Assembly (NCBI GenBank): GCA_947165805.1
Contig: CAMVBT010000019.1
Coordinates: 1 to 16,674, forward strand
Direction: 5' to 3'
DNA length: 16,674 nt
From: an uncultured Clostridia bacterium
GTDB taxonomy: Bacteria; Bacillota; Clostridia; Oscillospirales; Ruminococcaceae
Shown piece after piece: positions 602-7,684 of the stretch. The notes under the pieces were generated by a model that was not told where the DNA came from, did not search any database, and saw nothing but the letters and a program-made list of their open reading frames with translations. Every line of letters begins with the position of its first letter. Within the stretch, counting starts at the first letter, position 1. The translations under genes were made by a program, and so were the position numbers.

Positions 602-1381
602 TTATCCGAGCGCGACATCGAGTATCATCATCGCCGTAAATCCCGCTGCGAACGCTATCGTGCCGATATTCGAGTGCTCGCCCGCGGACATTTCGGGGAT
701 AAGCTCCTCGACCACGACATAGATCATCGCGCCCGCCGCGAAGCTGAGCAGATACGGCATCGCGGGGACTATCAGACCCGCGGCCGCGACGGTAAGCAGC
801 GCCCCGAGAGGCTCCACAGCGCCGGATATCACGCCCGCCGTGAATGCCCTGCCCTTGCTCATTCCCTCGGCTTTGAGCGGCATCGAGATTATCGCGCCCT
901 CGGGAAAATTCTGTATCGCGATGCCGATAGCGAGCGCGAGAGCCGCCGAAGACGACATTCCGCCGCCGTACAGCATACCCGCATATACAACGCCGACCGC
1001 CATTCCTTCGGGAATGTTGTGAAGAGTCACGGCCAGCAGCATCATTATGTTTTTCGGGAGCTTTGACTGCAATCCCTCGGCTTTGTCGCTGTTCAGGTGC
1101 AGATGCGGGATCAGCTTATCGAGCAGAAGCAGGAACGCAATACCGAGAAGAAATCCGATCGCAGCGGGCAGGAACGCGAGTTTACCCATAGTCTCGCCGC
1201 TCTGCTCTATCGCGGGGATAAGCAGGCTCCAGACGCTCGCCGCAGTCATAACGCCCGCCGCGAAGCCCGTTAAAATGCGCTGCACGGTCACGCCGAGCTG
1301 CTCCTTCATCGGGAACACGCACGCCGCCCCGAGTGATGTACCGAGAAACGGTATCAGAACGCCGTTTATAAGTTCTGTCAT
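602..1381 (-). CDS. ZIP-family divalent metal transporter (ZupT/GufA-like)
   Basis: This 259-residue integral membrane protein of the ZIP family takes up Zn, Fe or Mn; the metal cannot be told from sequence. The two ZIP metal-site signatures are intact: HNIPEG at residues 121-126 (TM4) and QNFPEG at 157-162 (TM5). A later acidic VEELIPE segment lies at 224-230. The loop between TM3 and TM4 carries HLHLN (about 93-97), a short version of the usual His-rich loop. Length fits the bacterial ZupT/GufA group of about 260 residues with eight helices. The start at 1381 follows an AAGGA-type site at about 1390-1395. The longer open frame back to 1498 is rejected because it would begin inside the promoter. 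A perfect TTAGC-N4-GCTAA palindrome just downstream of the -10 box indicates repression, probably by a metal-sensing regulator. A good terminator follows. Confidence 0.88.
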   Translation of the reverse strand: MTELINGVLIPFLGTSLGAACVFPMKEQLGVTVQRILTGFAAGVMTAASVWSLLIPAIEQSGETMGKLAFLPAAIGFLLGIAFLLLLDKLIPHLHLNSDKAEGLQSKLPKNIMMLLAVTLHNIPEGMAVGVVYAGMLYGGGMSSSAALALAIGIAIQNFPEGAIISMPLKAEGMSKGRAFTAGVISGAVEPLGALLTVAAAGLIVPAMPYLLSFAAGAMIYVVVEELIPEMSAGEHSNIGTIAFAAGFTAMMILDVALG

Positions 1382-1454
1382 ATCGACACTTCCTTTTTGA
1401 TAGCTTTTCAGCGCCGTCCCCGCGGGCTGTGGGGAACATATTTCAGCCCACAGA

Positions 1455-1468
1455 TTAGCTTTTGCTAA
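1455..1468. promoter_or_regulatory. Operator palindrome at the ZIP transcription start
   Basis: TTAGC-TTTT-GCTAA is a perfect 5-4-5 inverted repeat directly downstream of the ZIP -10 box (1470-1475), so a bound protein would cover +1. The same 14-bp pattern occurs twice in front of the pacL-like gene (1554-1567 and 1581-1594). The shape resembles DtxR/IdeR/MntR half-sites (TTAGG/CCTAA type), but the regulator's identity is inferred. Confidence 0.7.
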
Positions 1469-1469
1469 C

Positions 1470-1498
1470 ATTATACCACGAACTCCGCCGTAAATCAA
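1470..1498 (-). promoter_or_regulatory. Promoter of the ZIP gene
   Basis: Minus-strand TTGATT (1493-1498) and a perfect TATAAT (1470-1475) are 17 bp apart. They leave a leader of about 85 bases that begins with the operator palindrome. Confidence 0.8.
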
Positions 1499-1516
1499 GA
1501 TATTTTGAAAAATCTA

Positions 1517-1545
1517 TTGACTTTTCCGGGAAACAGTGGTATATT
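1517..1545 (+). promoter_or_regulatory. Promoter of the pacL-like/P-type ATPase operon
   Basis: TTGACT (1517-1522) and TATATT (1540-1545) are 17 bp apart. The spacer carries TTCCGGGAA (1524-1532), a 9-mer that recurs in both araC/MATE promoter spacers. Confidence 0.75.
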
Positions 1546-1552
1546 ATATGAG

Positions 1553-1594
1553 GTTAGGCAGAGCTAACACTATGCAGCGGTTAGCAAACGCTAA
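1553..1594. promoter_or_regulatory. Tandem operator palindromes upstream of the pacL-like gene
   Basis: The first site is TTAGG-CAGA-GCTAA (1554-1567, within a wider GTTAG-N6-CTAAC at 1553-1568). The second is the perfect TTAGC-AAAC-GCTAA (1581-1594). Their centres are 27 bp apart, and both lie just after the -10 box, in the 5' leader. They match the single site at the divergent ZIP promoter, so both transcription units probably answer to one repressor. Confidence 0.7.
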
Positions 1595-1623
1595 TATTTG
1601 TATGCCGAAAGGAAGAATGAAAA

Positions 1624-1908
1624 ATGAGTGCGTTAAAGAACATAGCCCTGCTGGCGGGTGGCTTTCTGATCGGGACAGCCGGAGTGAAGATACTTTCGTC
1701 GAAGGAGGCAAGGACGGTATATGCCCACACGACAGCCGCCGTTATCCGCGCGAAGGACTGCGTAATGACACAGGCGACAAAGGTGCGCGAGGGCTGCGGC
1801 GATATCCTCGCGGAAGCCCGTGATATCAACGCGGCGCGTGAAGCGGACGCGGAAAACGACGGGATCATCGGGGACGAGAGCGAAGAGACTCCCGCTGACG
1901 AAGCATGA
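1624..1908 (+). CDS. Small PacL-like/DUF6110-like membrane protein paired with the P-type ATPase
   Basis: The 94-residue protein has an N-terminal hydrophobic helix (about residues 5-24, ALLAGGFLIGTAGVKIL region). A charged middle helix follows with RAKDCVM and REGCGDILAEARDIN (about 43-70). The tail is strongly acidic (about 72-94, rich in Asp and Glu). This architecture matches small Firmicutes proteins (DUF6110) encoded before heavy-metal ATPases. It also resembles mycobacterial PacL1 (DUF1490), a metal-binding scaffold for the CtpC ATPase, which has the same one-helix, DxLAEA and metal-binding tail order. Here the tail has Asp/Glu but no His. Its two Cys (about 46 and 58) are possible ligands. 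The start follows AAGGAA at 1609-1614. The stop overlaps the ATPase start (ATGA at 1905-1908), implying coupled translation. Function by analogy: stabilise the pump and hand over metal. Confidence 0.7.
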   Translation: MSALKNIALLAGGFLIGTAGVKILSSKEARTVYAHTTAAVIRAKDCVMTQATKVREGCGDILAEARDINAAREADAENDGIIGDESEETPADEA

Positions 1909-4007
1909 AGTGCCGGATACTGCATGAATCGCAGGGGCGCATAAGGGTACATATCATCGGCAGATCAATGTCGTTCCGGCAGGCCGATATCCTCGAGATA
2001 TACCTGCGCGCGAAGCCGTTCGTAACCGCCGTCAAGGTGTTCGACAGGACGGGCGACGCGGCGATAGAATACAGCGGAAAGCGCTCCGAAGTTATCACTG
2101 CACTCGCCAAGTTCTCGTACAGCGATGAAACCGCGAACGCTCTTGTACCCGAACGTTCGAGCCGCGAGCTTGACCGCCGGTTCGAGAACAAGCTGATATT
2201 CGAGATATCGAAAAGATATGTGAGCAAGCTGCTGATACCCGCGCCTGTGCGTTTCGCGCTCGCGGTCATAAAGGCGCTCAAATACGTCCGTGAAGCGCTC
2301 CGCTGTATCGCGAGACAAAAGATCGAAGTAGCAATACTTGACGCGACTGCAATTGTTGTTTCGCTGATACGCCGTGATACAAAGACTGCGTCATCAGTGA
2401 TGTTCCTGCTGAAAGTCGGCGAGCTGCTCGAAGAATGGACGCACAAGCGCTCGGTGGACGATCTCGCGCGCACGATGTCGCTCGGCGTTGACAAGGTGTG
2501 GCTGAAAACATCGGACACGGAAGTGCTCGTGCCGATAAACACGGTCTCGGCGGGCGACGAGATGATCGTGCGCACCGGCGGCATGATACCGCTCGACGGC
2601 AAGGTGATACACGGCGAGGCGGAAGTAAATCAGGCGTCGATGACGGGCGAAGCAATGCCCGTCCACAAGAAGCCCGGCAGCTACGTCTACGCGGGAACGG
2701 TGGTCGAGGACGGCAGCGTGATAATAAGCGTTGACAAGACCTCCGGCAGCGGCAAATACGACCGCATCGTGAAGATGATCGAGGAGTCGGAAAAGATGAA
2801 GTCCGAGGCGGAGAGCAAGGCCGCGCACATAGCGGACAGGCTCGTTCCGTACAGCCTCGGCGGAACGATGCTGACATATCTTCTGACACGAAACGCGACC
2901 AAAGCGCTGTCGATACTTATGGTGGATTTTTCCTGCGCGCTGAAACTCGCTATGCCCGTTTCGGTGATCTCCGCGATGCGCGAGAGCAGCACACACGGCA
3001 TGACAGTCAAAGGCGGGCGCTTCCTCGAAGCCGTCGCGGAAGCTGACACGATAGTTTTCGACAAGACCGGCACTCTGACCCGCGCGGAGCCGAGAGTTGC
3101 GAAGATAGTGACATTCGGCGGCTGTGACGAAAGCGAATGTTTACGATTAGCGGCGTGCCTTGAAGAGCACTACCCGCACTCGATAGCGAACGCGGTAGTG
3201 AACGAAGCCGAAAAGCGCGGACTGCTCCATGAGGAGAAGCATTCGGCGGTGCAGTATGTCGTCGCGCACGGGATATCGAGCTCGATAGACGGCAGAAAAG
3301 CTGTGATCGGCAGCTACCATTTCGTGTTCGAGGACGAGGGCGTGCAAGTTCCGGACAGCGAGGAAAACAAGCTGAACGAACTGCCCTCCGAATACTCGCC
3401 CCTGTACCTTGCGGTCGGCGGGAAACTCGCCGCCGTTATCTGCATAGAGGACCCCCTGCGCCCCGAAGCCGCCGATGTTATCACCGGACTGAAAAAGTTA
3501 GGAATATCAAAAGTCGTGATGATGACCGGCGACAGCAGACGCACTGCCGAATCGGTCGCGGCGAAGGTCGGGGTCGATGAGTTCTACTGCGAGGTGTTGC
3601 CCGAGGACAAAGCGGTGTTCGTGAAGAAGGAACACGCCGCGGGACGCAGAGTCATAATGATAGGCGACGGCGTGAACGACTCCCCTGCCCTGTCCGAAGC
3701 CGACGCGGGCATAGCGATAAGCACCGGCGCGGCGATAGCGCGCGAGATCGCGGATATAACAATTTCAGCGGACGATCTGTACTGTCTGCTGACATTACGG
3801 AAAATAAGCGCGGAGCTGATGAAGCGCATACACTGGAATTACCGCGCGATAATCGGTTTCAATCTCGGTCTGATTATTCTCGGAGTTGCCGGAATTTTGC
3901 CGCCAGCGACATCGGCATTCCTGCACAATTCTTCAACGATTGCGATAGGCGTTGCGAGCATGAGAAACTATCTTAAAGATGATAAAAAGAGTGAAATATC
4001 ACACTAA
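1905..4007 (+). CDS. P1B-type heavy-metal-transporting ATPase (CtpC-like)
   Basis: This 700-residue ATP-driven metal pump has all the core P-type elements. The actuator loop has TGEA at 247-250. The phosphorylated Asp is D386 in DKTGT (386-390). The nucleotide domain has a YPHS version of the His-Pro motif at 423-426. The hinge has MTGDS at 540-544 and GDGVNDSPA at 587-595. The metal-site helix reads SCALKLAMP (343-351), a lone Cys in place of the classic CPC. That form is seen in CtpC-like pumps assigned to Mn or Zn. Residues 1-75 form a degenerate HMA-like domain without CxxC. Few hydrophobic segments precede the actuator, fewer than in Cu or Zn/Cd pumps. It is coupled to the PacL-like gene by a 4-base overlap and followed after 26 bases by a PEP-synthase-like gene. 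The metal and direction (likely export) are inferred. Confidence 0.88.
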   Translation: MKCRILHESQGRIRVHIIGRSMSFRQADILEIYLRAKPFVTAVKVFDRTGDAAIEYSGKRSEVITALAKFSYSDETANALVPERSSRELDRRFENKLIFEISKRYVSKLLIPAPVRFALAVIKALKYVREALRCIARQKIEVAILDATAIVVSLIRRDTKTASSVMFLLKVGELLEEWTHKRSVDDLARTMSLGVDKVWLKTSDTEVLVPINTVSAGDEMIVRTGGMIPLDGKVIHGEAEVNQASMTGEAMPVHKKPGSYVYAGTVVEDGSVIISVDKTSGSGKYDRIVKMIEESEKMKSEAESKAAHIADRLVPYSLGGTMLTYLLTRNATKALSILMVDFSCALKLAMPVSVISAMRESSTHGMTVKGGRFLEAVAEADTIVFDKTGTLTRAEPRVAKIVTFGGCDESECLRLAACLEEHYPHSIANAVVNEAEKRGLLHEEKHSAVQYVVAHGISSSIDGRKAVIGSYHFVFEDEGVQVPDSEENKLNELPSEYSPLYLAVGGKLAAVICIEDPLRPEAADVITGLKKLGISKVVMMTGDSRRTAESVAAKVGVDEFYCEVLPEDKAVFVKKEHAAGRRVIMIGDGVNDSPALSEADAGIAISTGAAIAREIADITISADDLYCLLTLRKISAELMKRIHWNYRAIIGFNLGLIILGVAGILPPATSAFLHNSSTIAIGVASMRNYLKDDKKSEISH

Positions 4008-4033
4008 AAAACATAAAAGGTCGGGTGTGGAAA

Positions 4034-4739
4034 ATGAGTGAAAATGTGTATGTAAAACGCTTTGCGGAGATCGGGAAGAACGATGTCCCGACCGCGGGTG
4101 GAAAGGGCGCAAATCTCGGTGAAATGACTTCTGCGGGACTTGCAGTTCCGACGGGCTTTGTCGTTACATCGGACGTGTACCGCGCATTTATAGCGGAAAA
4201 CGGGCTTGCGGGATTTATCACCGATGAGCTGCAAAATGCCGGTGACGATGAAGCAAAACTGTTAAGTGCAGCAGCAAAATTCCGCGAGCGTATAACAGCC
4301 GGAAATCTCCCCGAAAGTGTGTGGAATGCAGTTCTTGCGGAATACGAAAAGCTCGGCGAAAACGTGAGAGTAGCAGTGCGTTCGTCTGCGACCGCCGAGG
4401 ACTTGCCGGACGCGAGCTTCGCGGGACAGCAGGAAACGTATCTGAATGTCAGAGGTTTGGAACAAGTCAAAGCCCGTATTCTCGATTGTTACGCGTCGCT
4501 GTGGGGCGGCAGAGCCGTTGTTTACCGGCAGAAGCAGGGCTACGGGCAGAGCGGTATCGCACTCGCGGTTGTCGTTCAGGAAATGGTCGAAAGCGAGACC
4601 GCGGGAGTAATCTTCACAGCAGACCCCGTAAGCGGAGACCGCGGCATGATGCAGATAAACGCGTCTTACGGGCTGGGCGAGAGCGTAGTTTCAGGACGCG
4701 TCACGGCAGATACATACACCTGCACCAAAGACGGATACC
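4034..4739 (+). pseudogene. PEP synthase-like gene, 5' fragment cut by the CDF element
   Basis: The first roughly 235 residues of a pyruvate,water dikinase/PEP-synthase family enzyme are present. GGKGANLGEM (near residue 22) marks the N-terminal ATP-grasp region. VRSSATAEDLPDASFAGQQE, ASLWGGRAVVYR, QEMVESETAGVIFTADPVSG and GLGESVVSGRVTADTY follow in the right order. A full enzyme is about 800-870 residues with a phospho-His domain and a PEP-binding barrel; these are absent. Homology stops at about 4739, inside the left terminal repeat of the inserted element, and the frame then runs to a chance stop at 4802-4804. The ATG at 4034 fits homologue starts; an in-frame GTG at 4025 is an alternative and sits closer to AAAAGG at 4015-4020. 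It was probably the third gene of the ATPase operon. It cannot make active enzyme. Confidence 0.8.
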
Positions 4740-4753
4740 CATATAGAAGCTTT
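4734..4753 (+). repeat. Left terminal inverted repeat of the CDF element
   Basis: GATACCCATATAGAAGCTTT pairs with the right end at 6080-6099, with two mismatches. Confidence 0.75.
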
Positions 4754-4791
4754 GCCCCCAAGCGTTTAAGTGCTCAGGGGCATTCTGTTTT
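4753..4791 (+). terminator. Inward-facing terminator-like hairpin at the left end of the element
   Basis: TGCCCC (4753-4758) pairs with GGGGCA (4777-4782), with AGCG/TGCT inside. The T-rich run TTCTGTTTT (4783-4791) follows on the plus strand. The U-rich side is correct only for transcription entering from the disrupted host gene, not for the leftward CDF gene. Confidence 0.5.
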
Positions 4792-4824
4792 ATACGGTTG
4801 CTAAGATAAATCAGAATTTGTTTA

Positions 4825-5961
4825 TCAATCCGAAACATCCACATCCGGTGCAATCTGTATATCATACTCCGGATAAGCTGCCTTAATTTCATCATATATG
4901 ATTTGAATTCCTTCTTTTGGTTTGATATCGAAGTTCATGACAACATCAAACGTCATCTCCTTTGTTTCTGTATCCACATAGAACCCATGGAACTGAATCG
5001 CCCAGTTATGTTTCATAACACGGTCACGGACTTCTTCCTGCATATCGGCAGCTTCATCGTTGCTGGTATTATAGGAATACAGTCCGACGCCGGCAAGAAC
5101 AACACCAGTTTCCTTATAGACTTTTCTTTCCAGCCTTCTTGTTAGCTTATCAAATTCCCTTGTCGTCATCGTGTCAGGTACTTCAAGATGAACAGAAGCA
5201 AAATCCTTATCAGGACCGTAATTATACATGACCAGATCATAGGCCCCTCTGACCTCCGGCTCTTCGGAAAGCAGTTCTTTGATCTTGTCCGTTTTCTCTT
5301 TATCTGCTCTGACTCCCAATATTTCATTCAGTGTTTCCATCATCATTTCGATTCCCGCCTTGATGATGAAGCCGGCTATCACAACACCTACATATGCTTC
5401 TAGTGAAAGACCACTCATCATAAAAATAATTGCAGAAACCAGAACAGAGCCCGATAGAATGGCATCAAACATCGCATCAGAGCCGGATGCAACCAAAGAC
5501 CCTGAATTTACCTGTTCGCCTTTTGCCTTCACATATCTTCCGAGAATGATTTTGACAATGACAGCTACTGCAATAATAACGAGGGAAATGATGCTGTAGT
5601 TCGGCTTTTCGGGATGGATGATCTTTTTGACCGATTCCACAGCAGCCGTGATACCTGCATAGAGAACAATGCCTGAAACGATCATTGCACTTAGATATTC
5701 GATTCTGCCATATCCGAGTGGATGCTTCTTGTCAGGAAGTTTCCCGGCAAGTTTTGTCCCCACGATCGTAATGATTGAGGACAGGGCATCCGACAAATTA
5801 TTAACGGCATCCAAAGTAACAGCGATGGAGTTGGATATAATCCCGATCACCGCCTTGAAAGCTGTCAACAAAACATTTGTCAGGATTCCTATGATACTGG
5901 TACGAATAATAACCTTGTCACGATTTTGTTCCGAATTTACAGGTATTGCCTTTTGCTTCAT
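4825..5961 (-). CDS. Cation diffusion facilitator (CDF) family metal efflux transporter
   Basis: This 378-residue carrier exchanges a divalent cation (Zn, Fe, Mn or Cd; not resolved) for protons. The membrane domain spans about residues 20-215. The TM2 site reads D51-x2-N54-x3-D58, followed by the KHPLGYGRIEY loop (79-89). The TM5 site is D162-x3-D166 (SDAMFD). A cytoplasmic C-terminal domain (about 220-300, VRGAYDLVMYNYGP) has the usual ferredoxin-like fold of the family. A further extension reaches residue 378, making the protein longer than the common 290-310 and typical of a gut-Firmicutes subgroup. The start is supported by GAGGAG at 5970-5975, eight bases upstream, and by a fully consensus promoter at 6003-6031. 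It is the only gene of the terminal-repeat element and is intact. Its AT-rich codon use contrasts with its neighbours. Confidence 0.9.
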   Translation of the reverse strand: MKQKAIPVNSEQNRDKVIIRTSIIGILTNVLLTAFKAVIGIISNSIAVTLDAVNNLSDALSSIITIVGTKLAGKLPDKKHPLGYGRIEYLSAMIVSGIVLYAGITAAVESVKKIIHPEKPNYSIISLVIIAVAVIVKIILGRYVKAKGEQVNSGSLVASGSDAMFDAILSGSVLVSAIIFMMSGLSLEAYVGVVIAGFIIKAGIEMMMETLNEILGVRADKEKTDKIKELLSEEPEVRGAYDLVMYNYGPDKDFASVHLEVPDTMTTREFDKLTRRLERKVYKETGVVLAGVGLYSYNTSNDEAADMQEEVRDRVMKHNWAIQFHGFYVDTETKEMTFDVVMNFDIKPKEGIQIIYDEIKAAYPEYDIQIAPDVDVSD

Positions 5962-6002
5962 TTCTATTACTCCTCTACAAATTCCGATTTATATTCGTAA
6001 CA

Positions 6003-6031
6003 ATTATAGCATAACATTGCTGCATTGTCAA
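6003..6031 (-). promoter_or_regulatory. Perfect-consensus promoter of the CDF gene
   Basis: Minus-strand TTGACA (6026-6031) and TATAAT (6003-6008) are 17 bp apart, so every position matches the sigma-A consensus. No operator palindrome like that of the neighbouring metal genes is present, which suggests strong constitutive expression. Confidence 0.9.
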
Positions 6032-6032
6032 T

Positions 6033-6077
6033 AAAAACGCCATAGTACTTCTGACTGCAGATCAGAAATACTATGGC
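6033..6077 (-). terminator. Terminator hairpin upstream of the CDF promoter, facing inward
   Basis: GCCATAGTA (6039-6047) pairs with TACTATGGC (6069-6077), and TTCTGA (6049-6054) with TCAGAA (6062-6067), with a single mismatch and a CTGCAGA loop. On the minus strand a GTTTTT run follows (plus-strand A at 6033-6037) and abuts the -35 box at 6026-6031. It would stop leftward transcription entering from outside the element. Confidence 0.7.
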
Positions 6078-6079
6078 TT

Positions 6080-6099
6080 AAAACTTCTATATGAGTATC
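6080..6099 (-). repeat. Right terminal inverted repeat of the CDF element
   Basis: Read on the minus strand it is GATACTCATATAGAAGTTTT, matching 18 of 20 positions of the left repeat. Confidence 0.75.
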
Positions 6100-6465
6100 T
6101 TTCTTAAAAGCGGCGGGGTAAAGAATGTCGTCATAGGCTCAAAGGCGACGGAGATAGTCTACGCGGACGACGGGACTGCCGAAGCGAAGGTCAGCGCAGA
6201 GCGCCGCGCTTCCCGCGCGCTCGATGATTCGCAGATAAAGACGCTCTGCGCGGAGGCGATAACCGGCGATCCCGCGCTCCGCCGCGATGTCGAGGGCGGA
6301 ATGGCGTATGAGGAGATCCGCGTGAAATATCCGTCAATGGCGCAGATGTTCGACAAGTTCATGGAGAACAACGGCTACAAGCTCGATTTCAACTGCTGCT
6401 GCATTTATTCGCGTTCTTTCATCGAGGCTCCGCAGCGGCTCATGGGTATAATCAGACCGCTCATC
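6100..6465 (+). pseudogene. PEP synthase-like gene, continuation fragment to the right of the element
   Basis: The reading frame IFLKSGGVKNVVIGSKATE, then IVYADDG and LDDSQIKTLCAEA, is what follows GLGESVVSG in PEP synthases and rifampicin-phosphotransferase-like relatives (compare the IGSK, YA and LTDEQ pattern). The normally following HYG-x-P-x-D-x-E-W and LQAR part is absent. The frame passes directly to ITGDPALRRDVEGG and to a KYPSMAQMFDKFMENNGY region that looks like the domain after it, which suggests an internal deletion. At about 6460-6490 the frame enters a MATE sequence. An ATG at 6091 lies inside the terminal repeat but has no ribosome site, so expression is doubtful. Assignment of the 6270-6465 part to this family is less certain than the first 170 bases. 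Confidence 0.62.
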
Positions 6466-6489
6466 GGAGCGGAAGAAACGCCGGACGAC

Positions 6490-7366
6490 GGAGCGGAAAA
6501 GACCGCCTCGCTCGGCGTGTTCCTTGCCGCCGCCGCAGGCGTTCTTCTTGCTGTGATCTCGGTCATTTTCGTGCAGCCGTTCTCGGAGCTCCTCGGCGGC
6601 AGCGCGTCGGAAGAGCTGCTTGACAGCACAGTTTCATATATGACCGTCATCTGCGTCGGCATACCGTTCCAGATGCTCTCGACCACAGTTTACAATCAGC
6701 TCCGGCTCTGCGGCAACATAAAGGACGGCATGATCGGAATGGGCGTGGGAATGTTCGGGAACCTGTTCCTCGACCCGGTGTTCATTCTCGGCTTTGATAT
6801 GGGGATAACGGGCGCGGGTATCGCGTCAACGATCGGACAGATCGCTTCGTGCATCGTGCTGTACATCATCTCCGCGAAGCACGGGAATATCCCGATGCGC
6901 TTCTTCTCGTTCGACCTGAAAAACAGGCGGCTGTATCATATCCTGCTCGGCGGAGCTCCGAATTTCTCGCGACAAAGTATTACGAGCATCGCGTCTGTAC
7001 TGCTCAACAACGCGGCTGTGCCTTACGGAGCGTCGCTCATCGCCGCGATGACGGTATCCTCGCGCGTCTCGGCGGCGGCATATCTGATGATGATAGGCTT
7101 CGGGCAGGGATTTCAGCCGATATGCGCGATAAACTACGGCGCGAAGCAGTATGCCCGCGTGAAAGCCGCGTTCCGTATGACCGTCACCATAGGCACGGTA
7201 TTCCTGACGCTTGCGGGAGCTCTGCTCGCTGTGTTCGCGGAGCCGCTGACAGCTGCGTTCTCGTCGAGTGACCACGCAGTGACCGAAAAAGCCGCTCTCA
7301 TGGTAAGGCTTCAATGTATCTCTTTCCCGTTTATGCCGTTTTACGCGGTGTCGGGAATGTATATTC
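6490..7366 (+). pseudogene. MATE-family efflux pump fragment lacking both ends
   Basis: About 290 residues of a MATE transporter are present, starting in TM3/TM4 (EKTASLGVFLAAAAG). They continue through the family signatures IPFQMLSTTVYNQLRLCGN, a DPVFILGFDMGITGAGIAS stretch and FGQGFQPICAINYGAKQ. The first roughly 100 residues (TM1-TM3) are missing, replaced in frame by PEP-synthase-like sequence. The C-terminus stops after SGMY, where a leftward DUF4143 fragment begins; the final ILSL and stop at 7375-7377 come from that antisense sequence. The frame is still open for 428 codons from 6091, so a chimeric protein is formally possible, but without the first half-domain it should not transport. 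It is not a copy of the intact MATE at 7850-9235, from which it differs clearly. Confidence 0.75.
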
Positions 7367-7684
7367 TCAGTCTTTAAGAGCTGTTATCGGAACGACATAA
7401 ACCCCGTCCTCACGCTGGTAAGCGGCATTTGACAGTCCGCTTATTACACATAAGAGTTTAGGCGGCTTACCGTCTTCTTCCGAAGAGATGGCCTTTTGTA
7501 TTTTAAGGAGATTTGCGGCTGCCTGATCTATCTGATTGGCTCCGAGCTTTATTTCAAAAGCGTACCAATCACCGTTCTCGTCTTCGATGACAGCGTCTAT
7601 CTCATTTCCCCTGTAATCCTGGTTCAGCTCATTTTTTGTGTGTTTGCCATTTTTGAAGCGATTCGATTGTTTCAGAGCGGGTTT
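7367..7684 (-). pseudogene. C-terminal remnant of a DUF4143-type AAA+ ATPase
   Basis: Leftward frame 7684-7367 ends with YRGNEIDAVIEDENGDWYAF, then EIKLGANQIDQAAANLLKIQ, then LLCVISGLSNAAYQREDGVY and VVPITALKD before the stop. This is the hallmark C-terminal nuclease-like DUF4143 domain of the widespread AAA+ plus DUF4143 proteins (EIDAV, EIKLG, and the VYVVPI-A-LK end). The P-loop ATPase domain (about 300 residues) is absent; a stop (7685-7687) lies directly upstream in frame. The fragment butts against the truncated MATE, so the two broken genes share a rearrangement junction at about 7363-7369. Confidence 0.65.

Follow-up and report, generated by a model that had tools for sequence, protein, structure and literature searches.

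The question raised by this locus is how a single gene for a cation efflux protein of the CDF family came to lie between inverted terminal repeats inside a phosphoenolpyruvate (PEP) synthase gene. The DNA analysed, hereafter the window, is the whole of a 16,674-nucleotide stretch (contig CAMVBT010000019.1, assembly GCA_947165805.1) from an uncultured Clostridia bacterium of the Ruminococcaceae. Its element, at positions 4727-6105, is probably one copy of a family of non-autonomous transposons, each serving as a portable expression unit. Conserved ends, variable cargo, mobility and a preference for hairpins as insertion sites are well supported for this family; the way in which its genes are exchanged is less so and is weighed below against simpler explanations.

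Conserved ends, mobility and changing cargo

Alignment of the copies resolved two fixed modules placed around a cargo. The left module is composed of an outer repeat, a hairpin terminator, a perfect TTGACA-17-TATAAT promoter and the site ATAAATCRGAATTT, while the right module holds the inverse of that site, a GC hairpin and an outer repeat. Twenty-five aligned left modules have 77% identity per column, with largely conserved promoter hexamers. In the same 25 copies, five of the 15 base pairs of the left-module hairpin changed on both sides, a number equalled by 2 of 500 shuffles, and none of the 500 reached its paired percentage or its covariation score, in a control that ignores the relatedness of the copies.

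Two copies belonging to different genera, L114 (genome G113) and L200 (genome G071), share 91% identity over their full length, and their flanks (0.5-1.2 kb) have no match; since such identity comes with unrelated flanks, the family moves. When the L200 locus was compared with a 19-kb region, L140, the match was likewise confined to the element. Similarity thus stops at the ends in both pairs, a test that had been set in advance, and the copies at unrelated sites that the original prediction had called for do exist.

Concerning the distribution of the family, promoter-bearing ends without a CDF gene were first found in a search of a plasmid collection, on two Ruminococcus albus 7 plasmids where they accompany other genes; the plasmid copy in L083 has no left outer part. 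As a DNA query, the left end matched 32 of the 297 genomes of the window's family and 15 of its 126 genera, counts that include the window's own; few candidates were scored in each genome, and some of the matches are weak or partial. Searches at the level of the order (295 genomes) and of the phylum (398 genomes) found the left module in 6 and 2 genomes, respectively, counting the window's own, all within the window's family. Absence outside that family is weak evidence, because at most 11 (order) and 8 (phylum) candidates were scored per genome. From the R. albus plasmids, the host group is probably the Ruminococcaceae. Among viral contigs, three exact patterns (promoter end and inner sites) gave no match each; a phage record (H7/L135) has a 48-nt match. 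No account of the family was found in the titles and abstract openings of the open-licence literature searched.

With a covariance model, 16 genomes picked for their prior matches yielded 116 matches (E 1e-3 or better), from 1 to 18 in each, the weakest including right ends. Sixty regions were retrieved for the analysis of copies. Of the 92 non-duplicate left modules that scored at least 40, 68 are paired with a right module within 4 kb and 24 are not, several of the latter lying at contig ends. The boundary tests were made on 55 copies, 12 having been set aside because their ends were partial or weak, and one as the first left module of a tandem pair (L124). Element lengths range from 173 to 2235, with a median of 727. 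At L143:8361-10077, two tandem left modules, each with its own gene, are followed by a single right module at the end.

An open reading frame (ORF) of at least 40 aa is present in 51 of the 55 copies, and the longest one runs in the promoter direction in 47 of the 51. These ORFs start at a median of 17 nt past the left site and stop at a median of 3 nt inside the right module. Forty-three of the 51 were scanned, four on the other strand and four short or doubtful ones being left out. GNAT acetyltransferases (11) are the most frequent, followed by alpha/beta hydrolases (4), PNPOx (2) and APH-like proteins (2); CDF, dCTP deaminase-like, Imm42, DUF2716, isochorismatase, glycosyltransferase 2, CAAX protease and glyoxalase were seen once each. 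No transposase occurs among the 25 of 38 Pfam families shown, and three of ten cargo ORFs scanned singly had no match. In 52 of the 55 copies, the cargo exceeds its flanks in AT content; its median G+C is 37%, vs. 48% in the flanks. The right site stops all three reading frames in 15 of the 55, against 4% in shuffles.

Among 121 pairs of copies with left modules at least 85% alike, DNA-related cargo was found in two. Four g63 copies at one site share their interiors in part and have no clear gene, and therefore do not show swapping of cargo in place. The CDF gene had been taken as the element's own; other copies carry other genes, and no second CDF gene was found between such ends in the 80 CDF loci retrieved, a scan at up to 4 mismatches of 20 that gave single unpaired matches only, many of the loci ending at contig ends. 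A miniature inverted-repeat transposable element (MITE) tied to a CDF passenger was accordingly rejected, the cargo differing between copies. At the level of sequence, these comparisons establish mobility, conserved modules, changing cargo and gene orientation for the family, and the interruption of PEP synthase in the window.

The copy in the window

Read on the minus strand, the left half of the window copy presents the outer repeat, a 17-bp hairpin with a T tail, the promoter and the left inner site, and the right half a ribosome site, the gene, the inverse inner site, a GC-rich hairpin and the outer repeat. The features of the locus are as follows.

4727-6105, minus strand as oriented by the promoter: whole element (nhmmer matches of the left module at 6103-5980 and of the right module at 4820-4728, minus, extended to the model ends)
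6080-6105, minus strand: left outer terminal repeat (repeat search, family alignment)
6039-6077, minus strand: terminator-like 17-bp hairpin followed by GTTTTTATT, reading inward, ahead of the promoter (scan, fold, covariation)
6003-6031, minus strand: promoter TTGACA-17-TATAAT, 12/12, with TG ahead of the second hexamer (scan, left-module alignment)
5979-5992, minus strand: left inner site ATAAATCGGAATTT, where similarity among most copies ends (copy comparison, left-module alignment)
4825-5961, minus strand: cargo, CDF family cation efflux gene, 378 aa (ORF and profile matches)
4806-4819, minus strand: right inner site AAATTCTGATTTAT, inverse of the left inner site (sequence, right-module alignment)
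4754-4781, minus strand: right hairpin GCCCCTGAGC..GCTTGGGGGC (sequence, right-module alignment, fold)
4728-4753, minus strand: right outer terminal repeat (repeat search, right-module alignment)
4025-4733, plus strand: N-terminal part of the interrupted PEP-synthase gene (PPDK_N match, comparison with relatives)
6111-6470 (end approximate), plus strand: later PEP-synthase pieces that lack a large stretch between them and are fused at their end to a MATE gene (ORFs, relatives)

The original prediction, that a terminal-repeat element without a transposase and with a passenger had entered a PEP-synthase gene, is borne out by this analysis, with some corrections. The 20-bp ends that it had matched at 18/20, GATACCCATATAGAAGCTTT (4734-4753) and the reverse complement of 6080-6099, GATACTCATATAGAAGTTTT, extend in a repeat search of the window to inverted arms of 26 nt (4728-4753 and 6080-6105) that are 85% identical; they are not due to chance, because closely similar ends bound other copies. 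The element is real, and the family alignment places its ends 7 and 6 nt outside the proposed bounds of 4734 and 6099. It had also been called AT-rich compared with both flanks, and the G+C content is indeed 41-44% inside, vs. 48-60% in windows of 3001-4750 and 55-58% in 6251-7500. Its single intact gene is, as proposed, a CDF gene (Cation_efflux, E 1.4e-36), which, from knowledge of that family, probably exports divalent metal ions.

The left hairpin of the window copy has a z score of -7.7 when folded as single-stranded DNA. One terminator-like site was found in the region against 1.1 in shuffles, and five promoter-like sites against 3.2; since the scan finds such sites about as often in shuffles, the weight lies in the 12/12 promoter match and in conservation across copies. 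An Rfam search gave no match. The genome is a draft (354 contigs, 80% complete) with one full copy only, plus a second match of 39 nt. Genes for a ZIP transporter and a heavy-metal P-type ATPase (602-4007) lie directly upstream of the element; their adjacency to a CDF gene is possibly due to chance, other copies having unrelated cargo.

As for the insertion locus, the PEP-synthase frame breaks off after TCTKDG and picks up at GGVKNVVIGSK, with the element in between. Uninterrupted PEP-synthase genes, expected in relatives, were found in two genomes of the same genus (L283 and L284), where one open frame of 844 and 828 codons, respectively, from stop to stop, crosses the insertion point; the L283 frame has PPDK_N and PEP-utilizers domains, and a MATE-like frame comes after PEP synthase in both. 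The claim that the element had split the gene is correct as to the interruption and incomplete as to the rest: the window gene also has large later parts missing and continues in frame into a MATE gene without its N-terminus (6111-7377). The PEP-synthase/MATE locus, as read here, is decayed, and the insertion may have come before or after the decay.

Inner sites and the exchange of cargo

By eye, the inner site is a near-palindrome of 14-23 nt, one copy of which folds with a 2-nt bulge. In L214 (genome G158), one left and one right module surround three ORFs (121, 304 and 177 aa), and copies of the inner site lie between the ORFs at 0-1 mismatch, the site ahead of the third ORF being of the right type; the last right site has 3 mismatches. 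This third ORF shares 84-86% DNA identity with the sole cargo of L110, from another genus, and both belong to a PRK family. In addition, a 100-bp stretch with copies of AAATTCTGATTTA at its ends is 99% identical in L214 and L239, two loci of the same genome in which its neighbours differ.

The closest CDF relatives of the window gene lie in other contexts. Four of them (L002, L003, L004 and L034), on metagenomic contigs named Clostridiales, Lachnospiraceae and Solobacterium, have 86-87% DNA identity and no outer ends. Upstream of their CDF genes, near-copies of the left site occur at 3, 1, 2 and 2 mismatches, levels reached by 1.5, 0.2, 0.5 and 0.5%, respectively, of random 60-nt windows. This test covered ten of the 80 loci, and the six further relatives (L005-L010) have 4-6 mismatches to the left site upstream. 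Downstream, among nine tested, the right site was near only in L002 (3 mismatches, 0.8%). The CDF copies in G992 and L008 have a different upstream palindrome, so the inner site is not present in every CDF relative.

Two of these loci hold rows of genes. In L004:1-3029, a CDF, a HEAT-repeat, a metallo-beta-lactamase-fold and a second CDF gene (85% similar) follow one another, with near-palindromic sites ahead of three of the four. L002:4513-8471 has a row of small unrelated genes (HIT-like, CDF, FMN reductase and CAT family), flanked, by eye, by cmk/plsC and ispH, and a site at 3 mismatches to the inner site lies on each side of the CAT gene.

Two explanations compete for these observations. 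The elements may form an ordinary long-ended transposon family whose cargo changes by deletion, homologous recombination between ends and rare capture, the inner sites being transposase-binding repeats; this has nearly an even chance of being correct. The inner sites are indeed mutually inverse and conserved like the rest of the ends, nearly all elements carry one gene and inner sites inside cargo are rare; no recombinase is known, homologous recombination could account for the shared 100-bp unit, and CDF relatives elsewhere mostly have no right site downstream. What such a family does not lead one to expect is the close joining of genes to inner sites, the three ORFs of L214 with sites between them, a site-bounded 100-bp unit in two different neighbourhoods, and four CDF relatives with left-site near-copies at 1-3 mismatches and without outer ends.

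More tentatively, the family could be an integron-like gene-capture platform with neither an integron integrase nor long attC sites. Genes would be swapped and stacked behind the promoter at inverse sites of about 14 bp, and the loaded unit would be scattered by a transposase into terminator loops, its leading hairpin making good the broken terminator. The cassette pool may extend beyond the family, as the CDF genes with left-site near-copies from Clostridiales, Lachnospiraceae and Solobacterium suggest.

Insertion targets

When the 30-nt left and right flanks of the 55 copies were folded as the arms of one hairpin, the mean energy was -16.9 kcal/mol, against -10.1 (standard deviation 0.44) with permuted partners. 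Flank hairpins beyond the 5% level were found in 29 copies against 2.8 expected, and beyond the 1% level in 22 against 0.55; leaving out the window copy and three of four same-site copies, the counts are 29 and 22 of 51. Among the 29 hairpin copies, the distance between stem and element is 0-6 nt on the left and 0-3 nt on the right. A T-rich octamer (at least 6 T) lies near the right end in 17 of these 29 and an A-rich octamer (at least 6 A) on the left in 14, each against 7% of control windows, with one or the other in 22. An open frame of at least 80 codons ends within 150 nt in 25 of the 29, vs. 39% of random points. The corresponding counts for the 26 copies without a significant hairpin are 15 (T), 10 (A) and 20 (frame end), near those of the hairpin copies, which indicates that they also tend to lie at gene ends. 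These foldings and counts establish insertion between the arms of predicted hairpins in about half of the complete copies, most of these with terminator features.

Proposed mechanism and evidence weighed against it

In the portable expression unit, the outer inverted repeats would serve movement. The leading terminator-like hairpin would shield the unit from upstream transcription and replace the host terminator broken by insertion, and the strong built-in promoter would drive usually one gene with its own ribosome site, the closing site and hairpin ending the unit. A transposase supplied in trans, likely of the DDE type, would favour AT dinucleotides, often TA, within palindrome loops; our best guess is an enzyme behaving like those of IS1182/IS1272 or IS630. 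Perhaps a separate recombination at the short inner sites exchanges cargo and sometimes stacks it, as for integron cassettes, a step with less behind it than the others.

Several observations weigh against this interpretation. Twenty-six of the 55 copies have no significant flank hairpin, including the window copy (-11.3), which lies inside a gene, and no empty hairpin site was shown, the attempt at L175 having an unconserved left flank. The dinucleotides at the two ends are equal in 30 of the 55 copies, vs. 15.5 (standard deviation 2.6) after permutation, at a position chosen before this test as the best of 4608 offset/length combinations; TA/TA accounts for 22, which may belong to the inverted repeat instead, AA/AA for 4 and TT/TT for 3. 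A 2-nt target duplication is thus likely, not proved, its TA not being separable from the repeat sequence. No target duplication beyond 2 nt was found.

The enzymes, too, tell against it. Full-length elements encoding a transposase had been proposed as a further check, and a limited search identified no transposase with such ends, IS630/Tc1-mariner types not being searched for. PF13751 (IS1182-type) occurs in 6 of the 21 genomes tested but is nowhere bounded by paired ends of this kind, and ten PF13751 loci of 1.6-3.2 kb yielded one unpaired end-like match at 4 mismatches. The outer-end pattern (up to 3 mismatches) found known ends, a third end type and other matches in five genomes; ORFs were read in three of the ten regions retrieved. 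In L235:16-663 (G113), a Mutator-type (PF00872) transposase fragment lies 1.7 kb inward from an end-like match. The pattern list has no partner end for this match, which may be coding DNA; the fragment is probably unrelated to the family and was not counted. As regards the inner sites, L239 lacks the left outer repeat and retains no more of the left module than its inner part, and the inner sites inside elements are few, 8 (4 of them in L214) vs. 1.5 in shuffles.

The same search led to a 15.6-kb insertion in G113 (L234:1290-16965), which has the same outer ends, lies in a hairpin (GCCCGGCAGCT / AGCTGTCGGGC) and includes an end module of the third type. Its genes, four of them scanned and the others named by eye, have metabolic and transport functions. 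As a candidate autonomous element it led no further: no transposase was seen among its ORFs of at least 110 aa, read by eye, and none of the four scanned is a transposase. The third end module (L241:1966-1990 and L234:16934-16965), common to two genera, consists of the outer repeat, then CAACTATTATGTAAAGACCTATACAGC and a hairpin with a T run; in L241 it adjoins an ABC transporter gene. A classical integron was rejected, no integrase above the TIGR02249 cut-off being present in 25 genomes; weaker tyrosine recombinase matches occur in 24 of the 25 and in all 14 control genomes.

The end dinucleotides bear on a further alternative, namely that a transposase of the IS630/Tc1-mariner type, with a TA target, mobilises the family and that palindromes are favoured only as AT-rich, tolerated terminator loops. 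TA at both ends of 22 copies agrees with this, but the AA/AA and TT/TT copies misfit a strict TA rule and the stems lie nearer to the element than tolerance alone needs; we regard it as unlikely. That the elements are not mobile at all, being a vertically inherited regulatory repeat or a draft-assembly artefact, might be entertained for a single full copy in a draft genome, but is scarcely credible given copies in the two-contig genome G113 and in R. albus 7 plasmid records, and the end-to-end identity with unrelated flanks in two genera, which contradicts it for the family and rejects a vertically inherited repeat.

As portable expression units, the elements may be an unrecognised route by which these gut bacteria, related to Ruminococcus, acquire new genes and express them. 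The textbook platform for gathering promoterless genes and expressing them is the integron. In the present case, the genomes of one bacterial family contain up to about a dozen or more dispersed, self-contained one-gene units with changing cargo, from acetyltransferases, hydrolases and kinase-like proteins to efflux genes and an immunity protein, often at terminators where little harm is expected. This would explain how single accessory genes enter ready for expression, and it yields a sequence tag with which to find the units. It also raises two questions, namely which enzyme moves the unit and which process joins genes at the inner sites.

Comparison with known systems

TnSha1 and IS1272 are reported to insert into hairpins with no sequence consensus, five of seven sites having been confirmed as terminators by RNA-seq, and part of the hairpin is deleted; the IS1272 transposase moves TnSha1, which carries one cargo gene, a metabolic one, and there is no target duplication (PMC4923244, PMC5678879). 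Like this IS1182-family system of staphylococci, the present family enters hairpins without consensus (29 of 55 copies). Unlike it, it keeps both arms (0-6 nt away) and likely has a 2-nt repeat, empty sites not having been compared, and it has varying cargo and no transposase; no IS1182-type transposase beside a pair of such ends was found at the ten PF13751 loci.

Mobile insertion cassettes (MICs) hold a passenger between the ends of an insertion sequence (IS) and have no transposase. The gene qnrD is reported to lie in a mic element (PMC3913671). As in a MIC, or a MITE with a passenger, the present family has inverted-repeat ends, a passenger gene and no transposase. It differs in that its passenger nearly always changes and sits between promoter, inner sites and hairpins, and in that no parent IS was identified in the genomes and families tested.

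In integrons, promoterless single genes are read from a shared promoter, with short repeat sites at gene ends, and are stacked. The present family also has promoterless single genes behind a promoter, with an array in one element only (L214). Its sites of 14-23 nt are shorter than the attC sites of Treponema integrons, reported to be of at least 63 nt (PMC3607928). Unlike integrons, it is dispersed, nearly always has one gene with a promoter in each unit, and comes without an integron integrase above the cut-off. Set beside the TA duplication at IS630/Tc1-mariner targets, its end dinucleotides are mixed (TA/TA 22, AA/AA 4 and TT/TT 3 of 55). Since it departs from IS1182 and from integrons in a tested feature of each, the family is placed in neither; by analogy, it would work as a mobile insertion cassette with the target choice of IS1272 and with cargo taken up as in an integron.

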